A stretch of DNA of 64,000 nt from Saccoglossus kowalevskii (taxonomy: Eukaryota; Hemichordata; Enteropneusta; Harrimaniidae): positions 262,099 through 326,098 of the forward strand of contig NW_003130854.1 of the NCBI RefSeq assembly GCF_000003605.2. Reading direction: 5' to 3'. Within the stretch, counting starts at the first letter, position 1. The number at the start of each line of letters is the position of its first letter. The translations under genes were made by a program, and so were the position numbers. The notes beneath the pieces are model-generated. The model searched no databases. It saw only the letters and a list, made by a program, of their open reading frames with translations, and was not told where the DNA came from. This document shows, piece by piece, positions 20,376 to 63,793 of this stretch.

Positions 20376-20397
20376 GTTTTTTTTTTTCAATGCGTAT

Positions 20398-20416
20398 AAT
20401 ATATATATATATATAT
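20398..20416. repeat. AT dinucleotide microsatellite upstream of the globin
   Basis: About 19 bp of alternating TA directly upstream of the globin start codon, separated from it by an A-rich run on the coding strand. It could act as a TATA-like element but is equally likely a neutral microsatellite. Confidence 0.7.
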
Positions 20417-20699
20417 AGGGTTAACCGTTAAATATAAATCAACGTTCCAAGCGTCGCTGTATAGTATCAACACACTATGCGGTCTCACCATGTATTGGTA
20501 AACTCTGGATACGAATCTTCACGTATATGTCTTCGAAGATTGATAATCGTGATGGGTTTTTACAGGCTTAATCATTCACCTCTGTTTAGGTTTGCGAGCA
20601 CGACTCATCTTCATCTGTAAATTGGAGCAAAAAAAAGTCAAGGTTAATGATGTAGAATCAAATAAGGCTAATATCGTATCTGATGAAAATGATGTTATT

Positions 20700-40689: not shown

Positions 40690-41033
40690 TTATACAAAGA
40701 CTGGCGACAACTCCTCCAGAATGTCACGGACGACCATAGGTGGCGTGGGGACGGTGGTTGGAGCGGTGCAGGCTAGACAGTCACACGCAGTGATGTGTTC
40801 ATACTGTAAATCGTGTACACCGTCTTCGCACAACATAGATGTAGTAAGTGTTTCCGTTCCGGAAGCCGTGCAGCAGTCACAGTTATTCTCCAAGTCTCCG
40901 AAGGCATTAGTGTACGTGCTTGAGTGGCACATGCCAGTACAACGGCTTATTTGTACCTCGCCTATGCTGGTACATGCTCCGATATTAAGAGTCTGAACCA
41001 CGAGTTCAGGATCACACTCTTCGACTTGTGCCA
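40690..41033 (-). other. Mucin: C-terminal cystine knot (CTCK) exon
   Basis: The last coding exon ends in TAA at 40690-40692. It shows the CTCK pattern: an early cysteine, then SRCTGMC, a central NNCDCC, then MLCEDG and a terminal ACDCLAC, followed by a short Pro/Thr tail. In vertebrate gel-forming mucins and VWF this domain makes the first disulphide-linked dimer in the endoplasmic reticulum. Confidence 0.9.
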
Positions 41034-44000
41034 CTGATTAGAAAACAAAAAATAAGACTATAAATACTGTTTGCTAATTGTTTAGAATGTATGTGCGGAA
41101 ATGAATATTCGTATGTAGATCCCCCCCCCCTCGCATGTCAGGAGCAAGTTAATGAATTGGTTTGATTCCTTTATTCATAAATGAAGTATTAACTTAATAA
41201 CGAATATATAGCGTGGTTTACAGAGTATTCGGCAAATATGTTATTTACTGAAAATTGCAATCTGTATTTGTCTCACCTGGCATGCACTGAAAGTAATCAC
41301 AACAATCACTCTTGTAGCTCCACTGCAGCCCTTCTCCATTGCTACAAGTGGGAGGCGGTGGGCAATCCATCGGGTTACAATCTATAAGAATTACATGTCA
41401 TAATAGTTACAAACATTCGGGAAATAATATTGCTTTTTTTGTGTCTATAAGTTAGCTGCGCCATTGTCTTTTGGCACTAACTTGGGGAGTATGATACCAT
41501 ACTATTTCTAGTACGACATATCACGAGCGTTGATTGGCTGAAAGTTGCCGATGATATGATTGTTGTAGTACTCCGCCATGTTTTGCATGACAATACGTTT
41601 GAATAGTGTTTACCGATGGTATGTTATAAATCATAAGCTGACTATTGTTCTATTAATTAAAATGAAAAAAAGTATTCTATTATAATAGCTGCGTGGATGG
41701 GGTTTACAGATCACTCCGAGTCCGCGGAGAAAAAAAGAAGGCAAGCTTAATTACTTGCTTTACTTTCCATGTCAACAGCTACTATGATTTTACAAATACT
41801 TCTCGTAAATCGAGAACTGACGTCCCGTTCATCGTTGTTTGGTGACTGTAAACAACTTATTCCCGCCTGGCAACTGACTGCTATTTCTCCATATCAGTGA
41901 GTACGATTAATGAAAGTATTTTTCAATCCATGAACACGAAGCAACGTTATATCTAACTCATAGTAACTTAACCGACGTACATATACGTGTTACAAACATA
42001 CTGTAATCTCCGAATTCTACGGTGAACGCTGCGAATCTTTGCCGAGTCGCGTCACGGTGCTGTAACGCACGCGCGCGTGTGTGTATTGCTTTCGTACTAC
42101 TTCTACGTCGTTTACGAACGCCAAGGTGAAGCGTTAGTGAGTCTCCAAAAAACAGAACAGCGATCTGACTATCATTGTTACACCCCCACAATGCTATTGT
42201 AGTAAGCTCATTTATTTGTATAATTTTGGTTTAGGATATCTTACACAAAATCCAAGCTGATAAAGCTATGATATATTACTTATAGCTAATGTTTCGGAAG
42301 TGTGTGGCCATGGCTGTAGGCCTGGTTGATTAATAAGGTTTGCCATTTATCGAGGTTGATAATAATCGCATCACGTTGTTAAGTGCTATCTATTAGTATT
42401 TGAATACTCTACACACCGTTTTGTGTAAATTGGTTGTGTTTTTCTTCTATTGAAATTGCGACACATTGTTGGGGAAATAAAATGAAAGTTCCATTTACAG
42501 TAAAAAAAATAGATTTTTTCACTGACGTAGGAATTACGACATTCCATGTGGAAAAAAATATTACACGCTTACAAAAAAATAAAATCTTTGTACAAATTAC
42601 TGACGAATATAATAGCTGATTACATTTTATATCTTGCCCATGTCTACGAAACGTATGTGGATGAAACAGACTGTACATCTGCAGGTGCCAGTGCTAGTCT
42701 ATTTCGGGGGGGACTTGTATTGTCTTTTTAGTCTGATCTTTCTGTAAACTAGTATAACACGTGTGTTGCCGTGAACGACGCGTCAGATCTGTTGAAGCAC
42801 GGCTGTGTTATCAAACCCTCTCAATACACCATACGTATAAGGGGATTAATGACCATCGTCATTCAATGATTGACCAGGGCGTCCCTTGCGAATGCCAAGT
42901 AAGGTAATCTTGTCCTGTTGTCAGATAGCCAATGGAAATAAATCAAAGAATGAGAACGTGATCACCCAATCAGAATGCTGGACTCATGACTAGTTACCGT
43001 CCGCCTGTGGCTTCGTGCGCCATGACACTTGAGGTGGGCACCAGTCAACCCTGGTTGCCTGAGTGCTCATGTATGCCCTCTTACAAAGCCATGTATCCTC
43101 ATCGCACATACTAGATTATTTAACCCCCTCTATATCGGTAATTTGACTATTTACCTGTTGATCTGATTAATAAATAAAATGTGTTCTGGAGAACTCACCT
43201 GGTATACAGATAAAAATGTCGTCGCAATTACAATGACTTATCCCACTTTTACTGCTCTCCATACTATGCCCTGGAGGACACTCAATATCAGGCATGGGAC
43301 ACGCCTCTGGGCAAGCTGTAGAAACAAAATAAAAACAAATGTAGATATTACGTATTGAAATTATTATTAAAATCATTATAATTACATGTAATGTGTCTTG
43401 AAAAGAAAACATATTTCTCTTGCCAAAATGACTAAGCATCCATCAGTCGCATTGCATTGCGGGTTGTATTCTTGGTAACCGCAATGTTACTGCCACGGCT
43501 CCTTTGGTATACACATAAATAATGTATGCATACATATACACAAAACGACGTGTGTTCGCATGTGTACGCCATTATGTATCTGGGAATTGCAACCACATAA
43601 GCCCGGGCTGTTACGATGGTGTAGTCGGAAGTGATGCCCGTAATTGCCGTGGACAATACCGTTTTGAATACCTGCGTAATACAGCGGGGAACGAGGTCGG
43701 AACTCTTTCTCGGGCAAAACATCCGGGCCAGGGTAAAATCCATGTATTTCAGTCCTTTTTTCGGAGGGTGGAGAAATGACTGGTGTGCATTATATTGCAC
43801 GACGTCACGCGACGTTAGTGATACACGACAGTTTACTAAGCATAACAAAGACAAAACTTACTTGGAAGGCATACATAGCTCGGCGGACAGCATTCAGATG
43901 TACCAAATTCGGTCAGTTCATAACCCTCCGGACAAGTGACAGGACACTCTGGCTGTGACGGACAGACTAAAATGAACAAGAGAAATGTTGATTAAATATT

Positions 44001-47000
44001 TTGGTTATTATATTTAACACAATGTAGGACAGAATCTAACTAATACATCGGTCGGTTTCATTACTTGACTGACTTATAGTTTCTTGTCAGGGATTTCTCT
44101 ACACATGGGAGTATAAAATATAGCTATTTATAAATTGCTTATTACATAATAAAAACAAAAGAATCTCATATGCATAGAACATGTGGCCCTAACCCTAACC
44201 CCAACCAGTCTTGTAGTAAATATGCGTATTTTCTTTCCCAACCTTGCTCTCGCCACAAAATGTCGAGAGTGTGACAGAAAACCTTAAGTCGGATCGAAAA
44301 CTCAACCAAATTCTAAACAGCGAACAAGGAAGGCAATCTATTAACTTCCATACAACGACTGGCCTTCGTTATTGGGCAAGAATTAGTTTTACGTCGTTTT
44401 GTTTACGTATACGTTTACGTATATATAGACGGAATATTGTACAAGCCTTGTTCATCATATCGCCCGCTTTCGGCCCTTGTGACTTCAACACTTATATATA
44501 ATTACGTGAGGGAACATTTATGTTTTGGAAAAACACAGTAGAATCGGACTGAAAGCATATTTATTTTGCCAACATACTTACCAGTTGTTGGTGGCCCAGT
44601 AGAGATTGGTGCACCTGTAGTTTTTGATGGCCCGGTAGTTGTTTGTGCTCCTGTAGATGTTGATGGCACAGTAGTTGTTTGTCCACCTGTAGTTGTTGAT
44701 GGCCCAGTAGTTGTTGGTTGTGTACCTGCAGTTGTTGATGGCCCAGTAGGTGTTGGTTGTGTACCTGCAGTTGTTGATGGCCCAGTAGTTGTTGGTGTAC
44801 CTGTAGTTGTTGATGGCCCAGTAGTTGTTGTTTGTGCACCTGTAGATGTTGATGGCACAGTGGTTGTTTGTCCACCTGTAGTTGTTGATGGCCCAGTAGT
44901 TGTTGGTTGTATACCTGCAGTTGTTGATGGCCCAGTAGTTGTTGGTTGTGTGCCTGCAGATGTTGATGGCCCAGTAGTTGTTGGTGTACCTGCAGTTGTT
45001 GATGGCCCAGTAGATGTTGGTTGTGTACCTGCAGTTGTTGATGGCCCAGTAGTTGTTGGTTGTGTACCTGCAGTTGTTGATGGCCCAGTAGTTGTTGGTG
45101 TACCTTCAGTTGTTGATGGCCCAGTAGTTGTTGGTTGTGTACCTGCAGTTGTTGATGGCGCAGTAGTTGTTGGTTGTGTACCTGCAGTTGTTGATGGCCC
45201 AGTAGTTGTTGGTTGTGTACCAGCAGTTGTTGATGGCCCAGTAGTTGTTGGTTGGGTACCTGCAGTTGTTGATGGCCCAGTAGTTGTTGGTGCACCTGTA
45301 GTTGTTGATGGCCCAGTAGTTGTTGGTTGTGTACCTGCAGTTGTTGATGGCCCAGTAGTTGTTGGTGCACCTGTAGTTGTTGATGGCCCAGTAGTTGTTG
45401 GTTGTGTACCTGTAGTTGTTGATGGCCCAGTAGTTGTTGGTTGTGTACCTGTAGTTGTTGATGGCCCAGTAGTTGTTGGTTGTTTACCTGTAGTTGTTGA
45501 TGGCCCAGTAGTTGTTGGTTGTGTACCTGTAGTTGTTGATGGCCCTGCAGTTGTTGCAGAAGTTATTGGAGGTCCAGTAGTTGTTAGTGGCCCAGTAGTT
45601 GTTGTTGCTGGCCCAGTAGGGGTTAGTGGCCTAGTAGCAGTTGAAGGTCCAAATGTTGTTGGTGCTGCTGTTGGACAAATGTACACAGGACAACAAGGGC
45701 CATCATGACTATATTCTGCTGGTTCTCCATTCTCGCAAATTTGTGGCTTCTCGCATGGTGGACAAGCTATGACAAATAAAAGTGTTGATGTGATGAGATG
45801 TTGACCGATTTAAAGTTTTGTGCTAGACAAATTACATAATGATTTTCATATTATGTAGTTATCAGATTCTCAATTGTTTTCTGCAGAGAATGTTTCTAAA
45901 TGTGTAATGTGCATCACCTATGTCTCATGCTTGTTATAACTACTTTTAGAACAAATAAAAAAAAACATTTTCAGGCATGGCATATTTCTGAGCAGTAATA
46001 TCATATATGTGAGAAAAATTAAATTAAATGCATAACACTTACTAGTAACTGGTGGGTTCAGTTCTGTTGGAGATGGCACTATTGTTGTTCTTGGTCCAGT
46101 AGTTGTTGGACCAGTGGACAGTGGTGGCCCAGTTGTTGTTCTTGTTGGGCCACTAATTGTTGGTCCAGTCGTACTTGCTGCTTCAGTAGTTGTTGGTCCA
46201 GTCGTACCTGGTGCTCCAGTAGTTGCTGGTCCAGTAGTTGTTGGCCCAGAAGTTACTGGTGCTCCAGTAGTTGATGGCCCAGTAGTGGTTGATAATGTCG
46301 TACCCGGTGCTCCAGTAGTTGTTGATTCAGTCGTACTTGGTGCTCCAGTAGTTGATGGCCCAGTAGTTGTTGACCCAGTCGTACCTGGTGCTCCAGTAGT
46401 TGTTGATTCAGTCGTACTTGGAGCTCCAGTAGTTGTTGGTCCAGTAGTTGTTGATCCAGTCGTACTTGGTGCTCCCGTAGTTGCTGGTCCAGTAGTGGTT
46501 GATAATGTCGTACCTGGTGCCNNNNNNNNNNNNNNNNNNNNNNNNNNNNNNNNNNNNNNNNNNNNNNNNNNNNNNNNNNNNNNNNNNNNNNNNNNNNNNN
46601 NNNNNNNNNNNNNNNNNNNNNNNNNNNNNNNNNNNNNNNNNNNNNNNNNNNNNNNNNNNNNNNNNNNNNNNNNNNNNNNNNNNNNNNNNNNNNNNNNNNN
46701 NNNNNNNNNNNNNNNNNNNNNNNNNNNNNNNNNNNNNNNNNNNNNNNNNNNNNNNNNNNNNNNNNNNNNNNNNNNNNNNNNNNNNNNNNNNNNNNNNNNN
46801 NNNNNNNNNNNNNNNNNNNNNNNNNNNNNNNNNNNNNNNNNNNNNNNNNNNNNNNNNNNNNNNNNNNNNNNNNNNNNNNNNNNNNNNNNNNNNNNNNNNN
46901 NNNNNNNNNNNNNNNNNNNNNNNNNNNNNNNNNNNNNNNNNNNNNNNNNNNNNNNNNNNNNNNNNNNNNNNNNNNNNNNNNNNNNNNNNNNNNNNNNNNN

Positions 47001-50000
47001 NNNNNNNNNNNNNNNNNNNNNNNNTTCAGTCGTACTTGGAGCTCCAGTAGTTGTTGGTCCAGTAGTTGTTGATTCAGTCGTACTTGGTGCTCCAGTAGTT
47101 GATGGTCCAGTAGTTGTTGATTCAGTCGTACTTGGTGCTCCAGTAGTTGATGGCCCAGCAGTTGTTGACCCAGTCGTACCTGGTGCTCCAGTAGTTGTTG
47201 ATTCAGTCGTACTTGGAGCTCCAGTAGTTGTTGGTCCAGTAGTTGTTGATCCAGTCGTACTTGGTGCTCCCGTAGTTGCTGGTCCAGTAGTGGTTGATAA
47301 TGTCGTACCTGGTGCCCCAGTAGTTGTTGATTCAGTCGTACTTGGTGCTCCAGTAATTGCTGTTCCAGTCGTACTTGGTGCTCCAGTGGTGGTTTGTCCA
47401 GTCGTACTTGGTGCTCCAGCAGTTGATGGCCCAGTAGTTGTTGATCCAGTCGTACCTGGTGCCCCAGTAGTTGTTGGTTCTGTCGTACTTGGTGCTCCAG
47501 TAGTTGCTGGTCTAATAGTTGGCCCAGAAGTTATTGGTACTCCAGTAGTTGATGGCCCAGTAGTTGTTGACCCAGTAGTACCTGGTGCTCCAGTAGTTGT
47601 TGGTCCAGTCGTACTTGCTGCTCCAGTAGTTGCTGGTCCAGTAGTTGTTGGTCCAGAAGTTATTGGTGCTCCAGTAGTTGATGGCCCAGTAGTTGTTGAT
47701 CCAGTCGTACCTGGTGCTCCAGTAGTTGCTGCTCCAGTAGTTGTTGGCCCAGAAGTTACTGGTGCTCCAGTAGTTGATGGCCCAGTAGTTGTTGATCCAG
47801 TTGTGCCTGGTGCTTCAGTAGTAGTTGATTCAGTCGTACTTGGTGCCCAAGTAGTTGATGGCCCAGTAGTTGTTGATCCAGTCGTACCTGGTGCTCCAGT
47901 AGTTGTTGATTCAGTCGTACTTGCTGCTCCAGTAGTTGCTGGTCCAGTAGTTGTTGGTCCAGAAGTTATTGGTGCTCCAGTAGTTGTTGGTCCAGTAGTT
48001 GTTGGTCCAGTCGTACTTGGTGCTCCCGTAGTTGCTGGTCCAGTAGTTGTTGGCCCAGAAGTTATTGGTGCTCCAGTAGTTGATAACCCAGTAGTGGTTG
48101 ATAGTGTCGTACCTGGTGCCCCAGTAGTTGTTGATTCAGTCGTACTTGGTGCTCCAGTAATTGCTGTTCCAGTCGTACTTGGTGCTCCAGTGGTGGTTTG
48201 TCCAGTCGTACTTGGTGCTCCAGTAGTTGATGGCCCAGTAGTTGTTGATCCAGTCGTACCTGGTGCTCCAGGAGTTGATGGTCCAGTCGTACTTGGTGCT
48301 CCAGTAATTGTTGGTCCACTCGTACTTGGTGCTCCAGTAGTTGATGGCCCAGTAGTTGTTGGTTCTGTCGTACTTGGTTCTCCAGTAGTTGCTGGTCCAG
48401 TAGTTGTTGGCACAGAAGTTATTGGTGCTTCAGTAGTTGATGGCCCAGTAGTTGTTGATCCAGTCGTACCTGGTGCTCCAGTAGTTGTTGGTCCAGTCGT
48501 ACTTGCTGCTCCTGTAGTTGTTGGTCCAGTCGTACTAAGTGCTCCAGTAGTTGATGGCCCAGTAGTTGTTGGTTCTGTCGTACTTGGTGCTCCAGTAGTT
48601 GTTGGTCCAGTAGTTGTTGGCCCAGAAGTTATTGGTGCACCAGTAGTTGATGGCCCAGTAGTTGTTGATCCAGTCGTACCTGGTGCTCCAGTAGTTGTTG
48701 GACCAGTCGTACTTGCTGCTCCTGTAGTTGTTGGTCCTGTCGTACTTTGTGCTCCAGTAGTTGCTGGTCCAGTAGTTGTTGGTCCAGAAGTTGATGGCCC
48801 AGTAGTTGTTGATCCAGTCGTACCTGGTGCTCCAGTAGTTGCTGCTCCAGTAGTTGTTGGCCCAGAAGTTATTGGTGCTTCAGTAGTTGATGGCCCAGTA
48901 GTTGTTGATCCAGTCGTACCTGGTGCTCCAGTAGTTGTTGGTCCAGTTGTAATTGCTGCTCCAGTAGTTGTTGGTCCAGAAGTTATTGGTGCTCCAGTAG
49001 TTGATGGCCCAGTAGTTGTTGATCCAGTTGTACCTGGTGCTCCAGTAGTTGCTGCTCCAGTAGTTGTTGGCCCAGAAGTTATTGGTGCTTCAGTAGTTGA
49101 TGGCCCAGTAGTTGTTGATCCAGTCGTACCTGGTGCTCCAGTAGTTGTTGGTCCAGTCGTACTTGCTGCTCCAGTAGTTGTTGGTCCAGTCGTACTTTGT
49201 GCTCCAGTAATTGATGGTCCAATAGTCGTTGGTCCATTCGTACTTGGTGCTTCAGTGATTGTTGGTCCAGTAGTTGTTGCTGGCCCAGTAATTGTTGGTC
49301 CAGTCGTACTTGGTGTTCCAGTGGTTGTTGATTCAGGCGTACTTGGAGCTCCAGTAGCTGCTGGTCCAGTAGTTGTTGGCCCAGAAGTTATTGGTTCTGT
49401 CGTACTTGGTGTTCCAGTAGTTGTTGATACTGTTGTACCTGGTGCTCCAATAGTTGTTGATTCAGTTGTACTTGGAGCTCCAGTAGTTGCTGGTCCAGTA
49501 GTTGTTGGCCCAGAAGGTATTGGTGCTCCAGTTGTTGTTGGCCCAGTAGTTGTTCGTAGTCCAGTTGTACTTGTTGCTCCAGTAGTTGTTGGCCCAGTCG
49601 TACTTGCTGCTCCAGTAGTTGTTGGCCCAGTTGTACTTGGTGCGCCAGTAGTTGTTGGTCCAGTCGTACTTGGTGCTCCAGTAGTTGTTGAACCAGTGGA
49701 CTGTGATGGTCCAGTTGTCAGTGGCCCAGTTGTTGCAGGCCCGGTAGTTGTTGTTTCTGGAGAGAAGTGTGATTATAAATTATTGAACATGTCTCATTAG
49801 TACGAGTATAAATAAGCATGAGAATCATTATAATGACATTAATATTTATTATCAGACATAGATCATTTACTCATACATAAATGTTATTACATTGTGTGTA
49901 CTTACCTTTACATCCATCCCATATAGTACAGCAAGGACCTTCGCCAATAATAACAGGTTCTTGCCCAGGAGGACACTCTGGTTCTGATGGACAAGGTGGA

Positions 50001-53000
50001 CATACTGGTCCACCTGAAGTCGTGCTTGTGAGTGGGGGTCCTGTTGTCACTCCAGGTGTTTCAGACACACTTGTTAGTGGAGGCCCAGTAGTTGATCTAG
50101 CACTTGTTAGTGGCCCAGTCGTACTTGGTGCTTCGGTAGTTGTAGGTCTAGTAGTTGTTGCTGGCCCAGTAGTTGTTGCTGTCACAGTAGTTGTTGGTCC
50201 TGTCGTACTTGCTGCTCCAGTAGTTATTGGTTCAGTCGTACTTGGTGCTCCAGTAGTTGTTGGTCCAGTCGTTGTTGCTGCCCCAGTAGTTGTTGCTGGC
50301 ACAGTAGTTGTTGGTCCAATCGTACTTGCTGCTCCAGTAGTTGTTGGTCCACTCGTACTTGGTGCGCCAGTAGTTGTTGGTCCAGTCGTACTTGGTGCTA
50401 CAGTAGTTGTTGACCCAGTAGTTGTTGAACCAGTCGTACTTGGTGCGCCAGTAGTTGTTGGCCCAGTCGTACTTTGTGTGCCAGTAGTTGTGGGCCCAGT
50501 AGTTGCTGTTGGCCCACTAGTTGTTGCTTCAGTCGTACTTGGTGCTCCAGTAGTTGTTGGCCCGGTAGATAATGGTGGTCCAGTTGTACTTGGTGTTCCA
50601 GTACTTGTTTGTGGTCCAGTAGTTGTTGAACCAGTGGACAGTGGTGGTCCAGTTGTCAGTGGCCCAGTCATTGTTGGCCCTGAAGTTGTTGGTGGAAGTG
50701 TTGTTTCTGGAGAGAATTGTAATTGAAAATCATTGCACATCGCATTAGTATGTGTATAAATATGCATGAGAATCATTATAATAACATTAATATTTCATAT
50801 CAGACATAGATCATTTACTCATACATCCATTATTACATTGTGTGTACTTACCTCTACATCCATCCCATATAGTACAGCAAGGACCTTCGCCAATAATAAC
50901 GGGTTCTTGCCCAGGAGGACACTCTGGTTCTGATGGACAAGGGGGGCATACTGGTCCACCTGAAGTCGTGCTTGTGAGTGGGGGTCCTGTTGTCACTCCA
51001 GGTGTTTCAGATACACTTGTTAGTGGAGGTCCAGTAGTTGATCTAGCACTTGTTAGTGGCCCAGTCGTACTTGGTGCTCCAGTAATTGTTGGTCCAGTCG
51101 TACTTGGTGCGCCAGTAGTTGTGGGCCCAGTAGTTGCTGTTGGCCCACTAGTTGCTGGTCCAGTCGTACTTGGTGCTCCAGTAGTTGTTGGTCCAGTTGT
51201 ACTTGGTGCCCCAGTCGTTGCTGGTCCTGTCGTTGTTGGTGGAAGTGTTGTTTCTGGAGAGAAGTGGGATTGAAAATCATTGCACATCGCATTAGTACGA
51301 GTACAAATATTCATGAGAATCATTATAATAACATTAATATTTCATATCAGACATAGATCATTTACTCATACATAGATTGTATTACATTGTGTCTACTTAC
51401 CTCTACATCCATCCCATATAGTACAGCAAGGACCTTCTCCAATAATAACAGGTTCTTGCCCAGGAGGACACTCTGGTTCTGATGGACAAGGGGGGCATAC
51501 CGGTCCACCTGAAGTCGTGCTTGTGAGTGGGGGTCCTGTTGTTGTCACTCCAGATGTTTCAGATACACTTGTTAGTGGAGGCCCAGTAGTTGATCTAGCA
51601 CTTGTTAGTGGCCCAGTCGTACTTGGTGCTCCAGTAGTTGTTGTTCCAGTCGTTGTTGCTGCCCCAGTAGTTGTTGCTGGCACAGTAGTTGTTGGTCCAG
51701 TCGTACTTGCTGCTCCAGTAGTTGTTGGTCCAGTCGTACTTGGTGCGCCAGTAGTTGTTGGTCCAGTCGTACTTGGTGCTACAGTAGTTGTTGACCCAGT
51801 AGTTGCTGGACCAGTCGTACTTGGTGCGCCAGTAGTTGTTGGCCCAGTAGTTATTGGTTGTCTAGCAGTTGTTGGTGGTCCTGTAGTTGTTGGTGGCCCA
51901 GTGGTTGTTACCACAGGTTTTGTGGGTAACGTGATTATTGGTAGCGATGTAGTTCCTGGGGTTTCTAATTAATTAAAACAAAACAAATCAAATGGAACCA
52001 ATGAATTAGATTAATTGCTGAAAACATATACGTCACATGTACCTGTCATACAAACAATTTTGTTTACATTAGACCTTGCAATATTGTCGTGTGTTCGTTG
52101 TAGACATAGAATGATGTTACTAGACCCAACTGGTGGCGCCAGTTTTGCTGGCATTTCGGGTTTTGAATCTTCACTAATTTGTGACTACATAAAGGAAGAA
52201 TGTTGTTATGTGCCTTTGATGTTCAAGTAGTGTTACATCAGGAATACGAACAATATTCACTGGCTACGTTAAAATTAGCTGTTTCTTGTATTTATTAAGT
52301 GACTTGTACATGCTATTATATAGATATAAAAGGTAACAATGGTCGTCTTAGTTTCATTGTCACTCACCTTCTAGTAAGCACTCGTAAATTGGACAGCCAC
52401 ACTCGTCGTATCCACTGGTCACTGTCGCAGCACCGGTCGGACATGGAGGACTCGTTTCACATACACAGCCTTGGAGAGAAGTTGAGAAAACGTTTAAAAT
52501 GTAGAGCAAATTTGATATATTCAAGTGGATTTAGGAATAAAGTCGGTATTACTGGTGAAGAGCTAGGTTAGAATTTTAAGAAAAAAAAATGTGTAAAAAA
52601 AATGAATGTTGGCTTGGCAACTGCTTTACATGTGTGAGATATTATCAACTATTACGTATGGTAAACTGTAAAAAAACTACCACAATACACACGTGTTTCA
52701 TATATGCAAACGTCATAGTATACATTAGAACATCGGCTGGATTTATTTATGTATTGAATGCAGGGAATAATATGGCGTAACGAAGCAGACTTCTCCCATT
52801 TTTAAACATCTCTCTGCAACAAAGGATACCAGGAGAAATAGCTCTCACCTGGAGGAGTGGTCGAAATAGGCCAGCACCCGGCTGAGTAGTTACAACATCC
52901 GTCATTGTAGTATGTCAATTCTTCTCCTTCTGGACACGTGGGCATCGGAGGACATGTAGGTGGGCATGAGGCTATGAGAGTGATAAGAAATGCAATGGGT

Positions 53001-56000
53001 GTGTATACATCAACACATATTTCCTCTGTCATGCTTTCATGCTTGTGTAATTAGAAGGCAAATATTAGTGATCCACTAATTGTATCCCTTAAACTTTGAA
53101 CCAATCCTGATTAAAACATTGACCTGTTTACTAGGTTATATGATTACACTGGATTATTGTGTTTTTGTAATAAATTTAATGCGATTTGTAACAAGGGATT
53201 ATTACACATTTTCCAAGAAAGAAAGTTATAAAACCATTTATATTTCACTGGCGTTTAATGTCACTGATGCCTTCAGCAATTTTAATAGTCTTTAAGTTAA
53301 AATTCTACTTTACATTTTGACATGCATTTAATTTAGCGTGTTTTACTTATTTGGGAAAATAGTGAAATTAAAACCATCGAAAACATAATGCATGTACAGT
53401 AGTAGAAATGCGTTTCGTCTATAATGCCACTCAGGTTGTAGTGCCTTGCTGTCTAAAATCCTCTCTGTTTACCTTGCGGGTGGCTATAGACTATTATAAG
53501 TGCACTATAACTAACTTACGTTGTCCAGTAGTCGGCTGGAGAGTAGTTGACGGTGTTGTTGTTGGCGCTCGGCATTCGTAGTCACTGCAGCATCCATCAT
53601 AGTCATAAGGGAATGGGTAGTAGCCGGGCGGGCAGGTAGGAATCGTACACGGTGGACATGCTAGTGAAATGAGTGCACACATTACAGATGGTTCGACTTC
53701 AAAATATCACTTTCTTAATATCACAACGATTGTGATTAGCCCATAAGGTTTTTAAGACATGGATGAATAGAACAGTCGATCTAAATTAGCTAGGATATTT
53801 TACATAACATTAAAGTACTGAAATCTACAAATCTTTAATTTCAATGGCGATATCAAATGTGAACAATAATGTTCCGTTTCCCAACAACGCAGACAGTTTT
53901 GATTTTACTCAAAATGTACGTATCAGTGTGTTTGTAAAATAAAATAGTTATATATTTGGTTATAAGGAAATTTGGATCGATGAGATTGTAATATAAAATC
54001 ATACTTGTCGGAAGATATGCTGATGTTGTGATCATCGGCGAGGTGGTGGTGGTCCATACTGTGTGTATAGTTGTTGGTGTAATCCCAGTACTGGAGGTCG
54101 TTGGTGGCGGTGTCAAACATACGAACAAATCGCAACAATTAAGAGGATCGCGCCCTCCATAGTTGAGTTCGTGGCCTTCTGGACACGTTGGAATGGGTGG
54201 ACATGTCGGACAGGCTGCAAGAAACACAGTGTTCAATACCTCTTATCTGTATTATGAGTGGCCATTGCGTAATGTTCGCCGGCTCAATGAACTATTCTGA
54301 GCGCATAGCACTTTTCTCAACAACTCGACATAGAAATGATTAAGGATATATAATTTAATTGCTTTATTGTATATCAATTATACAACAGTAGTTTATACAT
54401 ACATGGGGACAAAGTCGAAGTTGGTCGTTCTGTATACGCCGTCGTCACAATCGGTGTCACCGACGTCGGCAGAGGTCTGGTCGTTATCACAGGTGGTGCG
54501 GATGTCGGTGCGATAGGCTTGCATTTGTACAGCGGACAGCAGCCAGTATTACCCCCGGTGTCTAACTCCCAACCCGGTGGACATGCTGGGGGTGTTGGGC
54601 ACCCAGGTGGGCATGTTCCAGGCGGTGGACACTCGGTGACGCATTCGTTTCCGTTCCATATTTCTCCCTCGGGGCACTGGCAACCTTCGACACACACATC
54701 TACGCATGCGCCGTTATCGTCTTGCCGGTGCTGGTGTTCACATGTTGCCTTGCAGACGGGTAAACACGGGTTGTAGATGAGACATTCTTCGCACTGTATA
54801 GCTGTAGAACACAGTTGTGATATAATTGTTATAATAATAGTATTTCAATGTATAATCATAGACTAATTACTGTCCATAGAAGAGGCATAGAAAACTGGTA
54901 AACAACAAATGAAATCAGCAAGTTTGGTGCACCATCTCTCTTGCAATCCTAGTAGTTCATAATTAGATTAACTTTATAATTAAATTAACATTTTCAGTTA
55001 TTCAGTACTAGCACAGTGTGTTCAACAATAAAACCTTATAGTCCCGATTTAGACATAAGCTGGAAAGCAATGGTCGTAGAATATTAATTATCTGTGTATT
55101 ACTGAGCAATAAATAGTTATGTATATTGGGAACAATTAACGTAGGTTCTTGCCAATATGCAAAACATTTACACATTGACTTTTTTATTGACTTAAGTAAC
55201 AATTTCAATAGAACAAAGAGTAAGTCACGTGTATTTTAGAATCGCTGACACCAATTGAGTGAATTAGTAAATGGGTTACAGGCAACATGGTATCAAAGTA
55301 AATGCCACAGTTTCTTGTATCTTTTCCATATAACAGATTTCGATGATCACGGTTTGAATACTCACGACATAGGTCTTGTGTTCGCCATCTTATCGGCACT
55401 CCATGTTTGTTGCACTCTTGACCATAGGCTGCAATAGCCGTACACAGACATTCGCAGTCGCCACCCATATCGCATCCACAGGCGTCAAACTCACACCTTT
55501 TTAGCCATGGTTCGTAAGGTACACTGGCGTGGCAGGGTTGGAATACTTCCGATTTCAATATGCTGCACTGTTTTCGAGACCACGTCTGTCTCTCCGGGTG
55601 CAGGGCGCAGGTATCTTCTATGACCGGCGCATCCGGACAGTAGTCATACGTTTTCCAACTGTTTCCGAATTCGTCGGGTTTCTCCAAAGCGAAGCCCCCT
55701 GATGGTGGTATGGTGTCGTCGTTCTGGTTGTCATTGTAGTTACCAGCCATGCCCTCAACCTGCCAGTACAATTAACAATATCAGGTTATTCAAATAAATT
55801 CCAATTCATCTCAATTCCAAGTATAACATTCTTAGAATTAGTATATTAATTGATCGATTACTCAAATAATTGATTAAATAATTAAATCAATTAACTAGTA
55901 CATGTACATGTTTAATATATAGTCGAACTAAACTATATCTTGATTTTAAAATTATCCAAATATCGCTACTTTTGTAGCTGCCTGACTGGGACTGAATTAG

Positions 56001-59000
56001 TGAACCGGATTCATTGTTAGCGATATAAAAAAATACACGACCGGTTCCGCCAAAAGCTCCGTCGATCGTTCAATAAATGAAAATGCTATATATATACATG
56101 AGTGTACGGAAGTAATATAAACATCTCTGCTTCAAACCAAGACATAATATCAGTCCCACCGAATAGGTATGATATCCTGATTACGATAGATACATACTCG
56201 TCCTTTGTGGATTGGGTCCAGTTTTACATAGAGCGTCGTCCCATTGTCCCACTGCAGAGTGACTCCTATTCGTGTATGGACAAACACATATAAGCCGACT
56301 TCTGTGACGGTCATCCTGTTAAATGCGCTTTCTCCGTAAGTTATTTCAGGCGGTTTTCCTCGTGTCAGAGTCAGCCTATGTTGATTCTTTCCACTTCCTG
56401 AGAGAAAAAAAAAACGACAATTTTTGAAAACCCCACAGTCGGGTGCTTTGCGTCGTGTTGGAAAATGGTTCCCTGCGATCTATTAAACGCGTGTATAATT
56501 GTTTACTTGAAAACGCGACGACGGCGAAGATTTAACAACAAAGTGAACAAATACGTCATATCGGCTTATAGAATGTTTTGTACACATAATACGGTGTTGA
56601 TTCTTACCTATTGTCATGGTAACGGTTTTCGAGCACGTAACCCCACTTGTACCGCACTGTACGTTTTCTGAAGCAACGCTGAATTCATAGACGTTGGACG
56701 CCGTGCTTCTGGTAACAATGTACGAGCACGCGCCTTGAAAGTCGTACGTCTTGCCGTCAAACGTGATATAATGTGGATCGCCGTACAACGTAGCGACACC
56801 TGGTGGGTAAGATTGTATTAACATATTACGGAAACATTGTTGATGACTTCTCTACAAATCACGCCCTCTAGGTACGAAATGTTCTGAAGTAAACAGGACG
56901 TAGAATGGTTCACATTTTTATTATAGAAAATCAATGATATCTCAAAAAGGTTACTGCCTAATCACAGATCATAACTAGAAGGCACTCCAGAACACCGCCA
57001 CAGCCGCAAAGCAACCTTACGAATATCTCTACCTTATTGGATTACAACATGTATGGCATTTGTTTCTTATGACAAAACACATTTATTATATAGACATAAA
57101 ATTCCAGTTTCTACGCGAAAAGAAAGATCAAATTGAATCTTTAACAGTTAATTCACTCAACGAATTAGATATTGAGTCAATTTAATCCTAATTGACAAAG
57201 GTGAAGAATTTTTCCAAAAATATGTTACCACGGCAATCAAGGCCACTTCTAAAATATAAAACAATTGCGATGAAAATCATGAAAAATTGTTAACCGTGTG
57301 ATGGCTGTTAATGATTAATAAACTCTTATCGAATTGTACTTGTTTCAATTCTTATCCCTTAAAAACGTTCATGAAAACTCCAATGCCATGCTATGCCATG
57401 CCACGCCACGCCACGCCACGCCACGCCACGCCACGTCACGCCACGCCACGCCACGCCGTGCTTTTTTATGTATTTACCTGCACATTCTTCGTTAGCACAT
57501 ACCCACTGATTATTACCAGAGCAGTTACTGAAAAATATAAGCAAAGTGACGTTCAAATTTAAAATAATACCTATTACTAGTATGCGATCCATGGAACTTA
57601 ATCCGAGTAGATTAAACTGGTGACAGCGAACTAACGTGTTGTATTGCTTTTAGAAATATACACGTAAATGATTTAAGTTGTATAATTTAAAAAAGAGAAT
57701 TCTCTCACCATATATTGCAATCGATTTTGATGTTCCCTCCAATTGGATATTCGCGGCCTCCGTGTAGACATGGACACTCTTCTGGTAATACACAACCCTC
57801 CGAGGACCACACATACCCTGGTCGACACTCACACCCGGGCTCACAGATGTCTTCCTCGCACTGTACATAGTTGTAGTTGTTAGCACAAGTGCGCGGACAG
57901 GTAGATGCGCAGCTTGTGTGCACTTCGTTTGTTCCGCAGCTTTGTTGCTCAGAGCATTCGCTGCACTGCCAGTCTCCGTTGATGCACATGCTACGGGGTG
58001 AACGTTAGAAAACTCATTGTTATCAGTTATTGTGAGATTGCTAGCGGGTCATTAGTCTTATCATGTCGTTCCAATAGACCGTTTGCGGTTGTTTTAGTAT
58101 CACTGCGATATTGCTGTCTGAGTATGTTATCAAATCCGCCATCATGCCCGTCATAGATAGTTAATATTCGTTTTTTATCATTATAATAATAGCCTAAATA
58201 TCTATCAGGCAAGTAAACTCACGATTTTCTGTTTCTGGGTGTACATTTGGAAAGAGCCTAATTGGAACAAAATATCACGTGCACCAGAAACTCGCAAATA
58301 TACCCTATAAGATAAATACATGTTCTAGTTTTGTTCACGGGGTGACACTGCGCATGTTGGTTAGAAGAAGTGTTTAGATTTAGATCGGATCTATTTCAAA
58401 CTTGCATTCCCACTTTTCATGATCTGCATAAAACCATCATACGAGCCTTGGGTTTTGTGCAATTCGTGAGTTATCTGATCCAACATAATCCTGAAATCGA
58501 ATTTTGATGGATATCCTAAAAATAAAAGAAGCCATGCAAACATAAATATGCACAAATGAAATTAAGTGATTACAACAAGGACATTTATGTTTGATTTGGC
58601 GATTTGACACCATGAACCTGATTTTGAGTAGATTGATTGCAGTGCTCCAGTTTTCAATGATGAGTTGCCACAGCAACTGATTTCCTAATTTCTCAGAGTG
58701 ATCAAAATAATCAGTGAGAGGCACGTGCATATAATAGGCCCTGGTGCACGTCTCACTAAAAGTACATATCATATCACATCACCTCCTTCTATCTATACCT
58801 ATATAAAGACCGTATATATTTGTATGATTTATTGACTTACCACTCCCCGCATCCTATCTGTATCAGATGGCCCGGTGGGTACCGAGTATTGGAATAGGTG
58901 CATGGGCACTCGCTAACTGACACACAATACCCATACTGACCCATAACCTCTCCGGGTGGGCAAGTGCAACCTTCGACACACTCTTCGTAGCATTCCTCCG

Positions 59001-62000
59001 GACCGTGAGACAGAGCAGTACACGACGTTCCACACGAGCTTCCACACTGCTGGAAGATCATGCCGTGGCTGCACAGTATTTCTATATGCAAATAAAATCA
59101 ATAAAGTACAACTTTTTTAAAATATGGTTTCATGTACATGCGAAATTTGGCGGATGACTTAATACAAAATACAATAGGCCAAAACCTGTTTTCAGCCGAA
59201 GTGTAAATCATGTACGATAGTTTGTTATTTATTGACTCAATGTCAAATAAACACCAATTCTCCACGTCGATGTCCAACACTGGTGCTGAAAAGTGGATGA
59301 TAGAGATATAACAAATTCCCTTCGCATACGAAATCGACTATATCGCACGCATATGATAGGCCAGCATTGGATCATCTGAAAGTGGTCTATTATAATAATA
59401 TACTCTGACCTTCAATATTGAAGCAGCCAGTCACTGAGTACACTGATGTAGCCGTCAAAGAGTGTCACAGTAAACTTTAATTCTGATATATTAACTGTTT
59501 TCTCACCACATCCTGGGGTGTGCTGTCTCCAATCAATAACAACTCCTCTATCGGCACACTTATGCGCATAGTCGGCCATAATCGTGCAATGACAATTCCC
59601 TTCGACATCCGAGCATTTGCAGTAGTCATACAAGCAGCTGTCATAGAATGAGTCTGGGTTGACCACTTCGTGACAAACTAGAGAAAAGAAGACACAGACA
59701 ATATATGTATATATATATATATAACGGAATAACAGATCGTGCCTTTCCCCTCCTGCCCTGACAGTTAATATGAAGCCTATCCTGTGATTTGGGACAATAG
59801 TTATATATGCACCTTGGGAGAACACGAGATGTATCTTACCTTGAAATACCGGATCGTATTTCAGACGTCGACAGATATCACGGGCATTACCGGCTTTCTG
59901 AGAGTAGAGATCACACGGGTGCATTTTGACGGTGGTGTCTGTGTTCACATCCATGCAGTTGGAGTCCGCTTTCCATTTGTTACCGAACGTCTCGGGGCCG
60001 ATTTCAATATCACCTGTTTGAGGGGGAATGTGTTTAGAAATCAATTTTGGAAATATCATAGTTCATTGGAAACTTTGGGGAAATAAATTCCGTAAAATAT
60101 TTTTAAGTCAAGCACAATGTAAAAATAAAATAGGAAGAGCTGTGTTGGCTCTAACGATGCGTGAACACGTGTAGTGCATATATACACAATGTAATCTCAC
60201 TGTATGCTAATACGATAACATGTTCTCACCTGCCATAGTGTAGAAATCATCTGCTTGTACGTTATTAAATGTACCGCATAAACCGCACGTCTTGGAAAGG
60301 TGATCCGGGCTGACAGTGATGTATACACGTGTATCGCCATCCCATAATATCCTAATTCCATTGGGAAGTGATAGCTGTAGAAATTTAATTGTGGTGATTG
60401 TAACAATTGAATACGTCATTCAAATCAACTTTAGAGTCGTGTTAATTGTGCACCTTTCCGTATTTATGTTGATGAGTTGAAAACAAAATGTCGTGAAAGA
60501 TGAACACTGGTACAATTAAAAGATTGTTAGCCAAAATACCACGAATTAATGGTAATTTATGTTAATGAAGAGTTTATGTACATTTTTCGTCAGGATAAAC
60601 AATAGCTCACAATCACCAAATCCCGATCTCCATGATCATACCTTAGTGAAAATTGAGGTGACGCGTTCAATAAAGACTCCATGCTGGTAATGTGGGAAGT
60701 AGAAGACATCGTTACCGTCTACAAGCACTTCGTGATTTTGTTTTAGTTTCACGTGGTGAAACCCCCAATAAACATGCACAGCTCGTGTACATACGCCGCC
60801 ACTTGCACTGCAATCTGAGTTTTCCACATTTATCTTGTACTCGTGGTCTTCCACGAAGCAATTCTGTGCCATCGAGTAGTGACAGTCGCCACTGAAGTCG
60901 TACATCGTTCCGTCGAATGTGGTGTAGTGAGGGTCACCGGTGGCTGAACACTTAGCTGTATTTTAGAAAAGATAATGTCACTTGCGTGTTTTTACAGTCG
61001 TTGATAGAGGGCGTTGTTTTATCACAGTTGAAATGTACATTCCCTTGAATTTACGTAAATAGTAGTTATTTCTATATCGTACGACGACAGACACAGTAGG
61101 TAATCAAACGAATAATAGTCATCAAACATTGTTCCCACGTCTCTAATCGGAAACAAAATACATATATCCTACCTTCACATTGGTTTTGAGTGCAGTTTTC
61201 CCATCTCCCGTTGATGCATTGACTGTAAAAGAATACTAGTACATGTATAACAGTGCAAGGAAAATTCGTGCGAATCAAGCACATAGTGATACAAATCAGG
61301 CACACTGTAATGCGAATCGCAGACACTGTGATGAAAATTCTACACACTGATCGTTATCATGCATATTTTGATACATAATATGCTCACTGGTGTGAATCGT
61401 ATGCACCGTGAAGCAAATCATCATGCTAAAATTCTATGCAGTATACCAACGCTTTTAAGTAAACAACTCAAAACGTGTATATATAATTATTATGCGTGAT
61501 TTTTGTGTTGCTCACACTTACCATTCATTGCAATCCTGGGATATCCACGTACCAGGGGCGTAATTCTGTCCATGGTAGCTACATTCACACTCGAATTCTT
61601 CCACACACTCGCCATTCTGCAAGTATGTATTATCTGGGCAGTGACACCCGTCCACGCAGTGACCATATTCACATATATATTCTTTTCTACTGCATGTCTT
61701 GGGACACATTGAACCACAGTCGTCATAAACCATGCCGGCTGTACAGTTAATGTCTAATAACAAATCAAGTAAAAGAGGAGTTTATTATAAATACAAAAAA
61801 CACAAACAAAAAAGATAAACCCAGATGCATACATTTGCTATCATAAACAATAATACAACACAATTACAAGATTCAGACTGACATACAAAACACTACGCTG
61901 ATAAGCTACTGCGAGTGTGTTTATATTCTAATGCAAATCGCAAGATACATAACTCAAATCAAGTACTTACAGCAGAAACCTGGTGATCGCCAGCCATTGA

Positions 62001-63730
62001 TTGGCACTCCAACCCTGGCGCATGTTCTGGAATACGCAGATATAGCGTTACATGCTGCGTCGTCTCTCCATTCTGCCGACAGACAAACATCAGTTTCACA
62101 GGCTTCGAGGTAATCAACAACATCGACGTGCTGATAAAATTAAAAAAACAGTATTAACAATTTCCAAATTAACTACATATCTCGTAGGATTTTTTAAGTT
62201 TATAAACTCAATTCATAAGAGTGTGACATACAATCACCTTACATAGGCAATCATCAAATCAAATCCTGTTCCGTCCCATATTACACGGCATATTTCCGAC
62301 AAGGTGAATCCACGATGAAAATGGGGGACACGAAAGCCATTTAAAACAATAGTGTTTGATCTGAAGTCGTCCATCAATGGATAATGTTATTGATTGAAAG
62401 TGTTTACTAATTTTCTAGATGATGAATGACTACATAACTGGACAGGTGTCGATTTGAACAGAAGAGTTACGTCAATAGAAATGCGACGTATTGATTGGTG
62501 TATTTCGAGAGATCACATTTGCATACTCTGTACCTGCGTAATGTAATTCTGCGATATAAGTAACTTACCTGGTGGCACGCATCGAATGGCGGATATAACA
62601 GGGTATCGCAGACACCCATAGACCGCACCTGCCTGGCTTGCTCAGTGCACAATGTAGCTGGGTCCCGTATACCCTCGACGCATTGACCTAAAACATATGA
62701 CATATTATTACCAAGACTAGCCCTGTGGAGCGATATAGGAAGCGAGGGGGTCTGCCACTAATTTATCTATGGTGGAAATAAAATGGCGTTGAGTGGGGTC
62801 AGTCATGTTTTTTTTCCTTATTTACAAAGCGATACGAACAACTAAGAGTTTAACTATACTTTCAAGAGTATGCCTCATATATTGCCGTCAACTTTTTCAA
62901 ATATCAGTGGGACAGTGGATGTGATGGTAGAAGAGAATGAAACACTATTTGCTCGTGCTTCTCTCGCTCTGAGCGAGATCTCGTCGGTCATTTCCGTCTT
63001 GTACTCTTATTTTTCGACAAGTGATAAAGAATAGTTACTAGTATTTGAAATTGTAGTGTGCCTAAACTGTGAACTTTGATGTTTGTAATAAGATGGCTAT
63101 AACTCTCACATTAGCTGACTAATTATTGTGTTATTATTATTGTTTTTTCGATTCTTTATTATGTCAACAAAAATAGCTTCATTGTCTTACCGTTGTTATC
63201 GACGACTTCCCATGACTTGGCAAACGTGTAAACACTGTCAGAAAGAACGCCCGTTGAAGTTGTCCAGTCATCGGCGGGATCGTCGTTATAGATACCACAC
63301 AGTCCGCACGTCTTACCAAACATTGAGCTACTAGTGATGACGACATCGACGTACTCGTCACCGTCCCAACGAAGACGGTAACCGGCTCCGCTTTTCACAA
63401 CAATGTAGCCACCCACTTGTTCGATGAGGGCGCCGTTAATGTAAGCAGGTATCGTCAACAACTCGTCGTCGGCGACAGCGCTGGGTCCGTTTTCCGTCTG
63501 AACGAGTAGAATGTTGTCTGCCGCGTTCCCGTTGTCGAGTAAGAGCGATCGCCGACACACATATGTGCCGTCGCAGTCCGGGTCATTGCTCAGGTACACG
63601 TTGAATGTGTTTGCCACGCAGTCCGCCACAAGTTTGTAGCTACAGGGACACTTGAAACTGTAGAGTTTGCCGTCAAATGTGCTGTAATGGGTCTGTCCGA
63701 ATGTGAAGCAAGTACCGGTGGAAGCGACAG
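40690..63730 (-). CDS. Gel-forming mucin, D1-D2-D'-D3 / PTS with cysteine modules / CTCK (29 exons in window; 5' end off right edge)
   Basis: A secreted, disulphide-assembled mucin related to MUC2/5AC/5B/6/19 and VWF. I traced 29 coding exons with GT-AG ends and matching phases, 11,576 coding bases (about 3858 codons). Order of domains: D1 (about residues 1-365), D2 (366-715), D' (716-826), D3 (827-1165), cysteine modules in short exons (1130-1413), Thr/Ser/Pro repeats with further modules (1414-3635), three more modules (3636-3744) and a C-terminal cystine knot (3745-3858). No D4 or B-type region is seen, as in MUC6/MUC19. The signal peptide must lie on an exon right of 63730, since the first exon here needs a donor codon base. 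Expected job: multimeric mucus gel on an epithelium or body surface, heavily O-glycosylated. All introns from the D3 C8 exon onward are phase 1. Sub-blocks are listed separately. The 503-base gap in the biggest exon means repeat number is uncertain. Confidence 0.93.
41277..43966 (-). other. Mucin: three C-terminal cysteine-module exons
   Basis: Exons 43862-43966, 43199-43315 and 41277-41381 (105, 117 and 105 bp), all phase 1-1, each a single module with almost no spacer. They read [14 protein letters not shown] with [23 protein letters not shown] with CNCDDIFIC, and [15 protein letters not shown] with CCDYFQC. They lead straight into the cystine-knot exon. Confidence 0.82.
42531..42650. repeat. 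Dispersed repeat, copy 2 (partner at 15962)
   Basis: Same order of blocks as at 15962-16085, with scattered substitutions and short indels. It lies in the 1.8-kb intron between the two penultimate cysteine-module exons of the mucin. Confidence 0.6.
44582..45766 (-). other. Mucin: cysteine module plus 13-residue PTS minisatellite exon
   Basis: An exon of 1185 bases, phase 1-1. It starts with a module ([10 protein letters not shown] ... GPCCPVYIC) and continues with about 25 copies of a 36- or 39-bp unit encoding [13 protein letters not shown] or the shorter [12 protein letters not shown]. Here the module precedes the PTS run, whereas in the duplicated exons at 49.9-52.0 kb it follows it. Confidence 0.88.
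44640..45560. repeat. 39-bp / 36-bp minisatellite (coding)
   Basis: Tandem units of 39 bp, with 36-bp variants lacking one codon, span most of this exon. All length variants are multiples of three, so the frame is never broken. Confidence 0.93.
46043..49756 (-). other. Mucin: giant 3.7-kb PTS-repeat exon
   Basis: A single exon of 3714 bases, open throughout on the minus strand, phase 1 at both ends, and in the same frame on both sides of the 503-base gap. It encodes Thr/Ser/Pro/Gly/Ala repeats such as [16 protein letters not shown] with [13 protein letters not shown] variants, and no cysteine. It begins with the same acceptor context as the three duplicated exons upstream, so it probably came from the same unit by repeat expansion. 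It should be densely O-glycosylated. Confidence 0.88.
46522..47024. other. Assembly gap (503 N) inside the giant PTS exon
   Basis: Undetermined bases in the middle of a tandem-repeat exon. The size is not round and keeps the reading frame, so it may be an estimate, but repeat collapse is possible. Confidence 0.99.
49906..51964 (-). other. Mucin: three near-identical tandemly duplicated exons (PTS plus cysteine module)
   Basis: Exons 51401-51964, 50852-51253 and 49906-50706 each begin with a Thr-rich run. They end in the same cassette: [14 protein letters not shown], then [29 protein letters not shown] and TIWDGC. The introns between them and before the next exon are 147, 145 and 149 bp and almost identical, as are the acceptor (CTCTCCAG) and donor (GTAAGTAGAC or GTAAGTACAC). 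The exons differ mainly in repeat number (564, 402 and 801 bp). Confidence 0.9.
52368..54214 (-). other. Mucin: four single-module cysteine exons
   Basis: Exons 54005-54214, 53520-53660, 52849-52971 and 52368-52469, each entering and leaving in phase 1. Each carries one ~30-residue module (C-P-x-C, then x-C-P-x-G, then a C-C pair, then C), for example [13 protein letters not shown] with CCDLFVC, and [12 protein letters not shown] with CCSDYEC. The first three end in short Thr/Ser/Pro tails. The fourth is a variant with CGCPIYEC in place of the C-C pair. Confidence 0.82.
54403..57990 (-). other. Mucin D'-D3 block (six exons)
   Basis: Exons 57709-57990 and 57478-57527 form D' (E', TIL', E). 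Exons 56608-56799, 56198-56397 and 55366-55759 form VWD3 and C8-3; exon 54403-54801 carries TIL3, then the first linker module and Thr/Pro sequence. VWD3 starts [18 protein letters not shown]8-3 is strikingly like vertebrate MUC5B ([26 protein letters not shown]). Where D1 and D2 have CGLCG, D3 reads [10 protein letters not shown] (about 55740-55759): both cysteines are gone while the following Asp/Asn-rich, probably calcium-binding, segment is kept. Confidence 0.88.
57383..57460. repeat. CCACG pentanucleotide microsatellite beside a mucin splice donor
   Basis: About 14 CCATG/CCACG pentamers run up to within about 20 bp of the donor of the short D' exon (57478-57527). On the mucin sense strand it reads as GGCGT-type repeats immediately inside the intron. 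Confidence 0.95.
58841..60955 (-). other. Mucin D2 block: VWD, C8, TIL (five exons)
   Basis: Exons 60642-60955, 60230-60374, 59840-60013, 59507-59677 and 58841-59081. The VWD begins [17 protein letters not shown], with GDPH present. CGLC at 60276-60287 lies within [11 protein letters not shown]8 runs over the third and fourth exons ([25 protein letters not shown]). TIL is on the fifth ([14 protein letters not shown] ... CPPGEVMG). The exon pattern differs from D1, where the whole VWD lies in one exon. Confidence 0.88.
61173..63730 (-). other. Mucin D1 block: VWD, C8, TIL, E (five exons)
   Basis: Exons 63191-63730, 62569-62687, 61971-62130, 61522-61753 and 61173-61222. The first carries the VWD fold ([13 protein letters not shown] near its start) and a CGLC motif at 63297-63308 within [10 protein letters not shown]. 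Exons 2 and 3 carry the C8 region. Exon 4 is a TIL module ([16 protein letters not shown] ... ECECSYHG), and exon 5 a short cysteine-rich E piece ([11 protein letters not shown]). In VWF and mucins the D1 and D2 CGLC motifs resemble thiol-oxidoreductase active sites and are linked to multimer assembly. Confidence 0.88.
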
Positions 63731-63793
63731 CTGTAAAAATTAAAAAAAAAAACACGTTAAAAAAGGAGGTCATAGTCTTGTAAATTTGTTATG

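Follow-up and report, generated by a model that had tools for sequence, protein, structure and literature searches.

Putative von Willebrand C half-domains scattered through the glycosylated region of a predicted Saccoglossus kowalevskii mucin

Among the domains that break up the glycan brushes of mucins, CysD serves as the standard example. According to PMC9169620, CysD together with proline-, threonine- and serine-rich (PTS) sequence occurs in Deuterostomia. Another small cysteine-rich unit, the truncated von Willebrand factor type C (VWC) domain denoted VWC', has been described for both MUC2 and VWF, with one copy in each; in the MUC2 structure, where no VWB domain was found, VWC' consists of a C-leaf and a Cys-knuckle and lies between VWC1 and VWC3, and the N-leaf mediates dimerization, whereas the C-leaf reportedly does not dimerize and makes no more than minor contacts, in VWC1 and VWC' (PMC10082768). 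A review calls the truncated VWC' a 'half C domain' (PMC11207715). Here we analyze twelve cysteine-rich modules (m1 to m12) of a predicted gel-forming mucin encoded in a 64,000-nucleotide stretch of Saccoglossus kowalevskii DNA (hereafter, the window, in which all positions are counted), within a 572 Mb assembly, on the contig labelled C2261 (262099-326098 of that contig). Judging by their sequences, these modules are very probably C-leaves, that is, second halves of VWC domains, equivalent to the truncated VWC' of MUC2 and VWF.

The module profile was built from a hand alignment of the ten distinct copies (the m6, m7 and m8 peptides are identical). All twelve modules, each ~30 residues long, encoded on the minus strand and containing exactly six cysteines, were recovered at full length by their own profile with 31.8 to 47.4 bits (the copies being the training sequences), compared to 9.5 bits for the best non-module match among 2780 six-frame segments of the window. 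When each distinct copy was scored with a leave-one-out profile, the scores ranged from 12.2 to 34.1 bits; no full shuffle reached the score of any of the ten copies, and none of 2000 cysteine-fixed shuffles did so for eight of them, the other two being m10 (2/2000) and m9 (20/2000). A module copy is thus present on the minus strand at all twelve places listed in a preliminary description of this DNA, and the span emphasized there, 45766..52368, which runs from the end of the m5 exon to the start of the m9 exon, contains m6, m7 and m8 only. The literal cysteine pattern proposed in that description fits no more than two of the 12 copies, and a looser version fits five; as detectors, such literal patterns miss copies and were superseded by the hand-aligned profile. 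The cysteine spacing in the window copies is C-x(1-5)-C-x(3-6)-C..CC or CxC-x(4-5)-C.

A profile made from the window copies only matched the VWCN leaf of human MUC2 with 21.6 bits, a score reached by 0/2000 full and 0/2000 cysteine-fixed shuffles. Human MUC2 VWC' scored 11.1 bits with this profile as the best domain in a 113-residue segment (0 full and 1/2000 cysteine-fixed shuffles) and 15.7 bits as a 34-residue piece (0 full and 4 cysteine-fixed of 2000), and 16.9 bits with a profile of leaves from the tails of sister genes described below (0 full and 7 cysteine-fixed of 2000). Control TIL1, TIL3 and E1 sequences of the window gene and a sister CysD scored at most 1.9 bits, and the cystine knot 4.8 bits; on the Pfam scan and these profile controls, we rejected TIL, chitin-binding, E-module, knot and CysD readings of the module. 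Protein searches of the same genome with m1, m12 and m6 returned the window's own copies and L002 alone, the latter (47% identity, E 0.75) rejected as a relative because, by eye, it is an unrelated cysteine-rich protein. PDB searches with profiles produced chance-looking matches only (collagen IV and, for one profile, also a carboxypeptidase inhibitor), and those with TIL3 plus m1 and with m12 alone produced weak chance-looking matches, for example, to capsid proteins and a Kunitz domain.

The window gene combines N-terminal VWD-C8-TIL assemblies, a PTS region and a C-terminal cystine knot, the layout that defines gel-forming mucins. Among nine segments of the N-terminal part scanned against Pfam, VWD was detected in three, C8 in two, TIL in three and no domain in one; the C8 of the first assembly gave no match in the single segment scanned there. 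Splice sites were assigned by consensus scoring, and the resulting predicted gene model joins 14 exons, the first 13 of which all have lengths that are multiples of three, into a single open frame from TIL3 to the stop codon after the knot (2769 amino acids, 168 of them unread at an assembly gap). For 11 of the 12 module exons, the acceptor and the donor with the highest scores are in phase 1, consistent with the earlier suggestion that most modules occupy symmetric phase 1-1 exons. The m1 exon has a phase 1 donor, a top-scoring acceptor at 54748 (score 0.4) in phase 0, and an acceptor at 54801 (0.0) in phase 1, which was chosen because it is located before TIL3; apart from m12 (Table 1), acceptor scores are weak for m3 (-0.2) and m9 (-0.1). 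Between m1 and m10, all nine linkers lack cysteine and have a PTS fraction of 0.57-0.70, the minimum being that of the gap-containing linker; m1 and m2 are separated by a 40-residue PTS linker. Modules m1 to m9 are located within the PTS region or next to it, and m10, m11 and m12 form a tail stalk before the cystine knot, with 3, 3 and 6 amino acids between successive units. A phase 1 intron is positioned 2 nucleotides (nt) before the first cysteine codon in seven of the 12 copies (m2, m3, m5 and m9-m12); for m4, the distance is 5 nt, m6-m8 are preceded by PTS sequence in the same exon, and m1 is within the TIL3 exon. No N-leaf is predicted before the modules: the preceding exon of these seven copies encodes PTS sequence or another module, and m1 comes after TIL3.

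Comparable leaves are found in the tails of sister genes. A search of the genome for the VWD family gave at least 158 matches, which represent a large set of VWD proteins, and sister stretches were read, five of 10 kb and then three more, of which L050 and L051 consist of 9104 and 10000 N of 10000. In L033, a Pfam scan of eight segments identified VWD, C8, TIL, a sub-cut-off VWC1 (the sole match at E<=0.1 being PF00093 positions 11-57, E=0.0034, 18.1 bits, cut-off 27.6) and the cystine knot; two scanned leaf segments and one VWC-looking segment had no Pfam match. In L033, exons that each encode a single C-leaf separate VWC1 from the knot, and L037 looks alike by eye; in L052, leaf exons follow C8 (E=0.00062, below the cut-off) and a TIL, the latter assigned by eye, and precede the knot. 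In seven of the nine sister-tail leaves examined, the best acceptor is in phase 1 and exactly 2 nt before the first cysteine codon, and the best donor is in phase 1 in all nine (a sample that leaves out L033a, the last L052 leaf and the CxC leaves). The window profile and the tail profile partly cross-match: with the former, cysteine-fixed shuffles reached the score at most 6 times in 2000 for four of eight tail leaves, and with the latter, for five of the ten distinct window copies, m12 scoring best. A tree of the leaves intermixes window, tail and MUC2 leaves, with 1/18 inner branches well supported and a p-AU of 0.075 when the window copies are constrained to one group; leaves are too short to resolve the tree. 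Separately, in L052 (407-1087, minus strand), the open segment of the knot continues into PTS repeats, so that this knot may not be C-terminal, and a CysD match lies further along from it, at C3574:1354899.

Hence, the earlier proposal that the module resembles a cut-down VWC half-domain is backed by the profile matches, the intron position in the sister-gene tails and the layout before the knot. The accompanying remark that no named domain has this form is not supported, given the truncated VWC', C-leaf plus Cys-knuckle, already described for MUC2 and VWF (PMC10082768 and PMC11207715). The module is probably not a new domain but a known half-domain in an unusual place.

The place is that of CysD in two sister mucins. 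The CysD family (PF13330, Mucin2_WxxW) matches the genome 74 times, never on C2261, and has no match in the ten module segments; the matches include both sister mucins on C2922, one on C3574, and, on C4504 and C3976, others flanked by VWD matches. Many of the 74 are clustered, for example, on C4131. In L034 and L035, CysD is located in the PTS region after TIL3, with no C-leaf between. The TIL3 exon passes directly into PTS in four sisters (L034, L035, L036 and L052), and m1 is therefore particular to the window gene among the genes read. The module profile gave nothing above 9.9 bits in L034-L036, where L034 and L035 are interrupted by long runs of N and the PTS of L036 is covered at its beginning only.

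Several observations weigh against the C-leaf assignment or its peculiarity to this gene. Pfam VWC had no match at E<=1 on any of the 10 module segments, and the lone Pfam match in the module region was cEGF on the m10 segment (E=0.044, 14.1 bits, cut-off 26.6). PF00093 has 27 matches in the genome, 25 of them above the cut-off and none on C2261; given no Pfam VWC match on the modules or on this contig, the module is not a full VWC domain, and ten full-VWC loci of the 27 scored at most 6.3 bits with the module profile. Four PDB searches (three with profiles, one with a single copy) did not return the MUC2 entry 7qcl at E<=10, and the MUC2 match was seen only with the hand alignment against fragments. 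Within MUC2, the piece covering VWC'-VWC3 had a full-segment score of -1.9 bits, the VWC1 segment was not significant with the window-only profile, and the tail profile gave the VWCN leaf 0.6 bits (471 and 947 of 2000 shuffles). A VWF stretch was not significant either, its best domain of 5.0 bits being reached by 32 and 35 of 2000 shuffles. Among the sister tails, leaf L037b had -1.3 bits with the window profile, cysteine-fixed shuffles reached the scores of L033a, b and d in 74, 40 and 30 of 2000 cases, and one L052 leaf was named by eye, neither profile exceeding 5 bits. In the reverse comparison, the tail profile on m3, m6, m2, m9 and m5 was equalled by 287, 366, 93, 45 and 25 of 2000 cysteine-fixed shuffles. 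The AF2 model of the module has a pLDDT of 66.7 (low confidence), from an input alignment in which the CC pairs of modules m10 and m11 are poorly placed, and the fold comparison returned nothing. Finally, the interspersed leaves may not be unique to this gene: the PTS regions on C4504 and C3976 are outside the stretches read, and L034, L035, L050 and L051 contain long N stretches.

From sequence and layout, we tentatively propose the following mechanism, which we rate slightly short of an even chance. Single-leaf symmetric phase-1 exons would have spread by duplication to the glycosylated region, and each scattered leaf there would fold as a small bead with three internal disulfides. The beads would interrupt the O-glycan brush, serving as compact spacers and bending points that resist proteases, and would occupy the place of CysD in the sister mucins without forming intermolecular disulfides. 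Internal disulfides are favored because each module has an even number of cysteines and the linkers are cysteine-free. Taken as a whole, C-leaf identity plus closed spacer beads spread in the PTS region is likely the best explanation of the locus.

The most serious competing explanation, still an unlikely one, is that the modules are crosslinkers, the beads pairing between chains non-covalently or by rearranged disulfides, as proposed for CysD. The preliminary description had suggested a spacer or crosslinking part like that of CysD, and the positional half of this comparison stands, with CysD in the PTS of L034 and L035 and none on this contig. The shared place in two sister mucins agrees with crosslinking, as do the minor C-leaf interactions reported in MUC2 VWC1 and VWC' (PMC10082768). 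Moreover, m2 starts 40 residues after m1, and MUC2 CysD1, carried on a ~40-residue threonine-rich segment, docks on a neighboring bead (PMC9169620), a likeness in spacing that leaves room for a docking role. Against crosslinking are the even cysteine number in 12/12 modules and the absence of cysteines from the linkers, as well as the MUC2 C-leaf, which, these minor interactions aside, is reported as non-dimerizing (PMC10082768). Because of this cysteine pattern and the reported behavior of the MUC2 C-leaf, we prefer closed spacers, and the crosslinking half of the earlier comparison is not upheld.

Slightly less probable again is the possibility that the interspersed copies are functionless by-products of exon duplication, tolerated because their exons are symmetric. 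Symmetric exons duplicate easily, and m6-m8 look like recent tandem copies, with best blocks 89-90% identical. In these three copies, four of the 31 module codons vary, all synonymously; for m7 versus m8, however, the residues encoded by the 43 PTS codons beside the module are likewise identical, all eight nonsynonymous differences falling in the 17 codons beyond. The adjoining PTS sequence has thus changed no more than the module, so these codons do not single out the module, and an argument for selection on it from m6-m8 was withdrawn. What speaks against mere by-products is the retention of six cysteines in 12/12 copies and the fact that divergent copies still score in the leave-one-out comparison.

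We consider it improbable that the modules are a separate six-cysteine family with a convergent likeness to the VWC C-leaf. The lack of a Pfam VWC match, the absence of MUC2 from all four PDB search results, the failure of the ten full-VWC loci to match and the several non-significant cross-tests would fit such a family; the matches to MUC2 and to the tail leaves, the shared intron position, and the mixing of window, tail and MUC2 leaves in the tree, hardly resolved as it is, argue against it. A ligand-binding module (e.g. chitin-binding) or TIL-like inhibitor is very improbable: a tunicate gel-forming mucin is reported with a chitin-binding domain (PMC6109156), but no chitin-binding or inhibitor family matched at E<=1 on nine of the ten segments, the tenth has its TIL match upstream of m1, and the TIL controls do not match.

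Table 1. Predicted features of the mucin gene in the window
Feature	Positions	Strand	Evidence
Exon: TIL3 of the D3 assembly, m1 (54613-54521) and PTS start	54403..54801	-	PF01826 TIL E=1.4e-7; m1 41.9 bits; acceptor hand-picked
Exon: m2 (54212-54117), then PTS; phase 1-1	54005..54214	-	39.4 bits; first Cys codon 2 nt after the acceptor; phase 1 donor at 54005
Exon: m3 (53658-53572), then PTS; phase 1-1	53520..53660	-	31.8 bits; splice sites
Exon: m4 (52966-52874); phase 1-1	52849..52971	-	44.3 bits; splice sites
Exon: m5 (52467-52378), CGC variant; phase 1-1	52368..52469	-	34.1 bits; splice sites
Exon: PTS, then m6 (51497-51405); phase 1-1	51401..51964	-	35.5 bits; splice sites
Exon: PTS, then m7 (50948-50856), peptide = m6	50852..51253	-	35.7 bits; splice sites
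Exon: PTS, then m8 (50002-49910), peptide = m6	49906..50706	-	34.5 bits; splice sites
Large PTS exon, no cysteine in the read part, contains assembly gap 46522-47024	46043..49756	-	splice model
Exon: m9 (45764-45675), then long PTS; phase 1-1	44582..45766	-	33.6 bits; splice sites
Exon: m10 (43964-43869), tail stalk; phase 1-1	43862..43966	-	33.6 bits; splice sites
Exon: m11 (43313-43206), tail stalk, CNC variant; phase 1-1	43199..43315	-	37.6 bits; splice sites
Exon: m12 (41379-41284), last before knot; phase 1-1	41277..41381	-	47.4 bits; tail profile 23.9 bits; acceptor weak (-3.1)
Last exon: C-terminal cystine knot	40690..41033	-	PF00007 Cys_knot E=1.8e-6, PF03045 DAN E=4.5e-5; candidate acceptor 41033 phase 1; stop closes frame
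N-terminal VWD/C8/TIL assemblies, same mucin	55211..63788	-	Pfam

The assembly gap inside the large PTS exon comprises 503 N. Opposite the large PTS exon, a 1254-residue plus-strand open frame (46036-49800) is probably a by-product of the repeats. Elsewhere in the window, the minus-strand open frames 19794-20420 and 181-663 resemble, by eye, a globin and a protein kinase, respectively. Outside the window, the COX1 gene at L056 (C4830) contains in-frame TGA codons and one AAA where Lys is expected, a misfit to the echinoderm mitochondrial code.

A paralogue with half-VWC modules in the place of CysD amounts to a natural swap, in which similar N-terminal assemblies are followed by different interruptions, and which would allow what interruption itself does (through spacing or protease resistance) to be distinguished from association between chains. 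More broadly, we see an even chance that this lineage evolved a second mode of mucin segmentation, in which single VWC leaves of the mucin's own dimer stalk, rather than CysD, spread through the glycosylated region by symmetric-exon duplication as non-dimerizing beads, the sister mucins then differing in whether their brush interruptions can associate. No published description of interspersed half-VWC modules was found in the open-licence literature.

Compared to the known systems, the modules resemble VWC' of human MUC2 in their six cysteines, in spacing (C-x4-C-x6-C..CC-x4-C in MUC2 VWC') and in the profile match, and m10-m12 share with VWC' of MUC2 and VWF the site before the cystine knot; VWC' is, in the available accounts, a single copy in each of these proteins, in contrast to the 12 copies here, nine of which follow TIL3 or lie inside the PTS region. 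The C-leaf exons in the tails of L033, L037 and L052 are similar in intron position and phase, and differ in that they are confined to the pre-knot tail within the stretches read, the PTS regions of two of these genes lying outside those stretches. Tandem single leaves are also present in the VWF B1-B3 repeats (an older name), of which B2 scored 11.0 bits (0/2000 shuffles of either kind), B1 9.1 bits (7/2000 cysteine-fixed) and B3, which by eye the CxC variant m5 resembles, 6.6 bits (46/2000 cysteine-fixed); unlike the window modules, these repeats are not in a PTS region. CysD likewise is a cysteine-rich domain that breaks the PTS in L034 and L035, but it has about 100 residues and no profile similarity to the modules (-2.7 bits). 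In Drosophila Tenectin, vWC-like domains flank PTS domains, with half-domains not mentioned in the accessible part of the account (PMC3410870). What is new in the Saccoglossus mucin is the deployment: leaves occur not just in the tail stalk but dispersed along the sugar-bearing region, at the place that CysD takes in two sister mucins.

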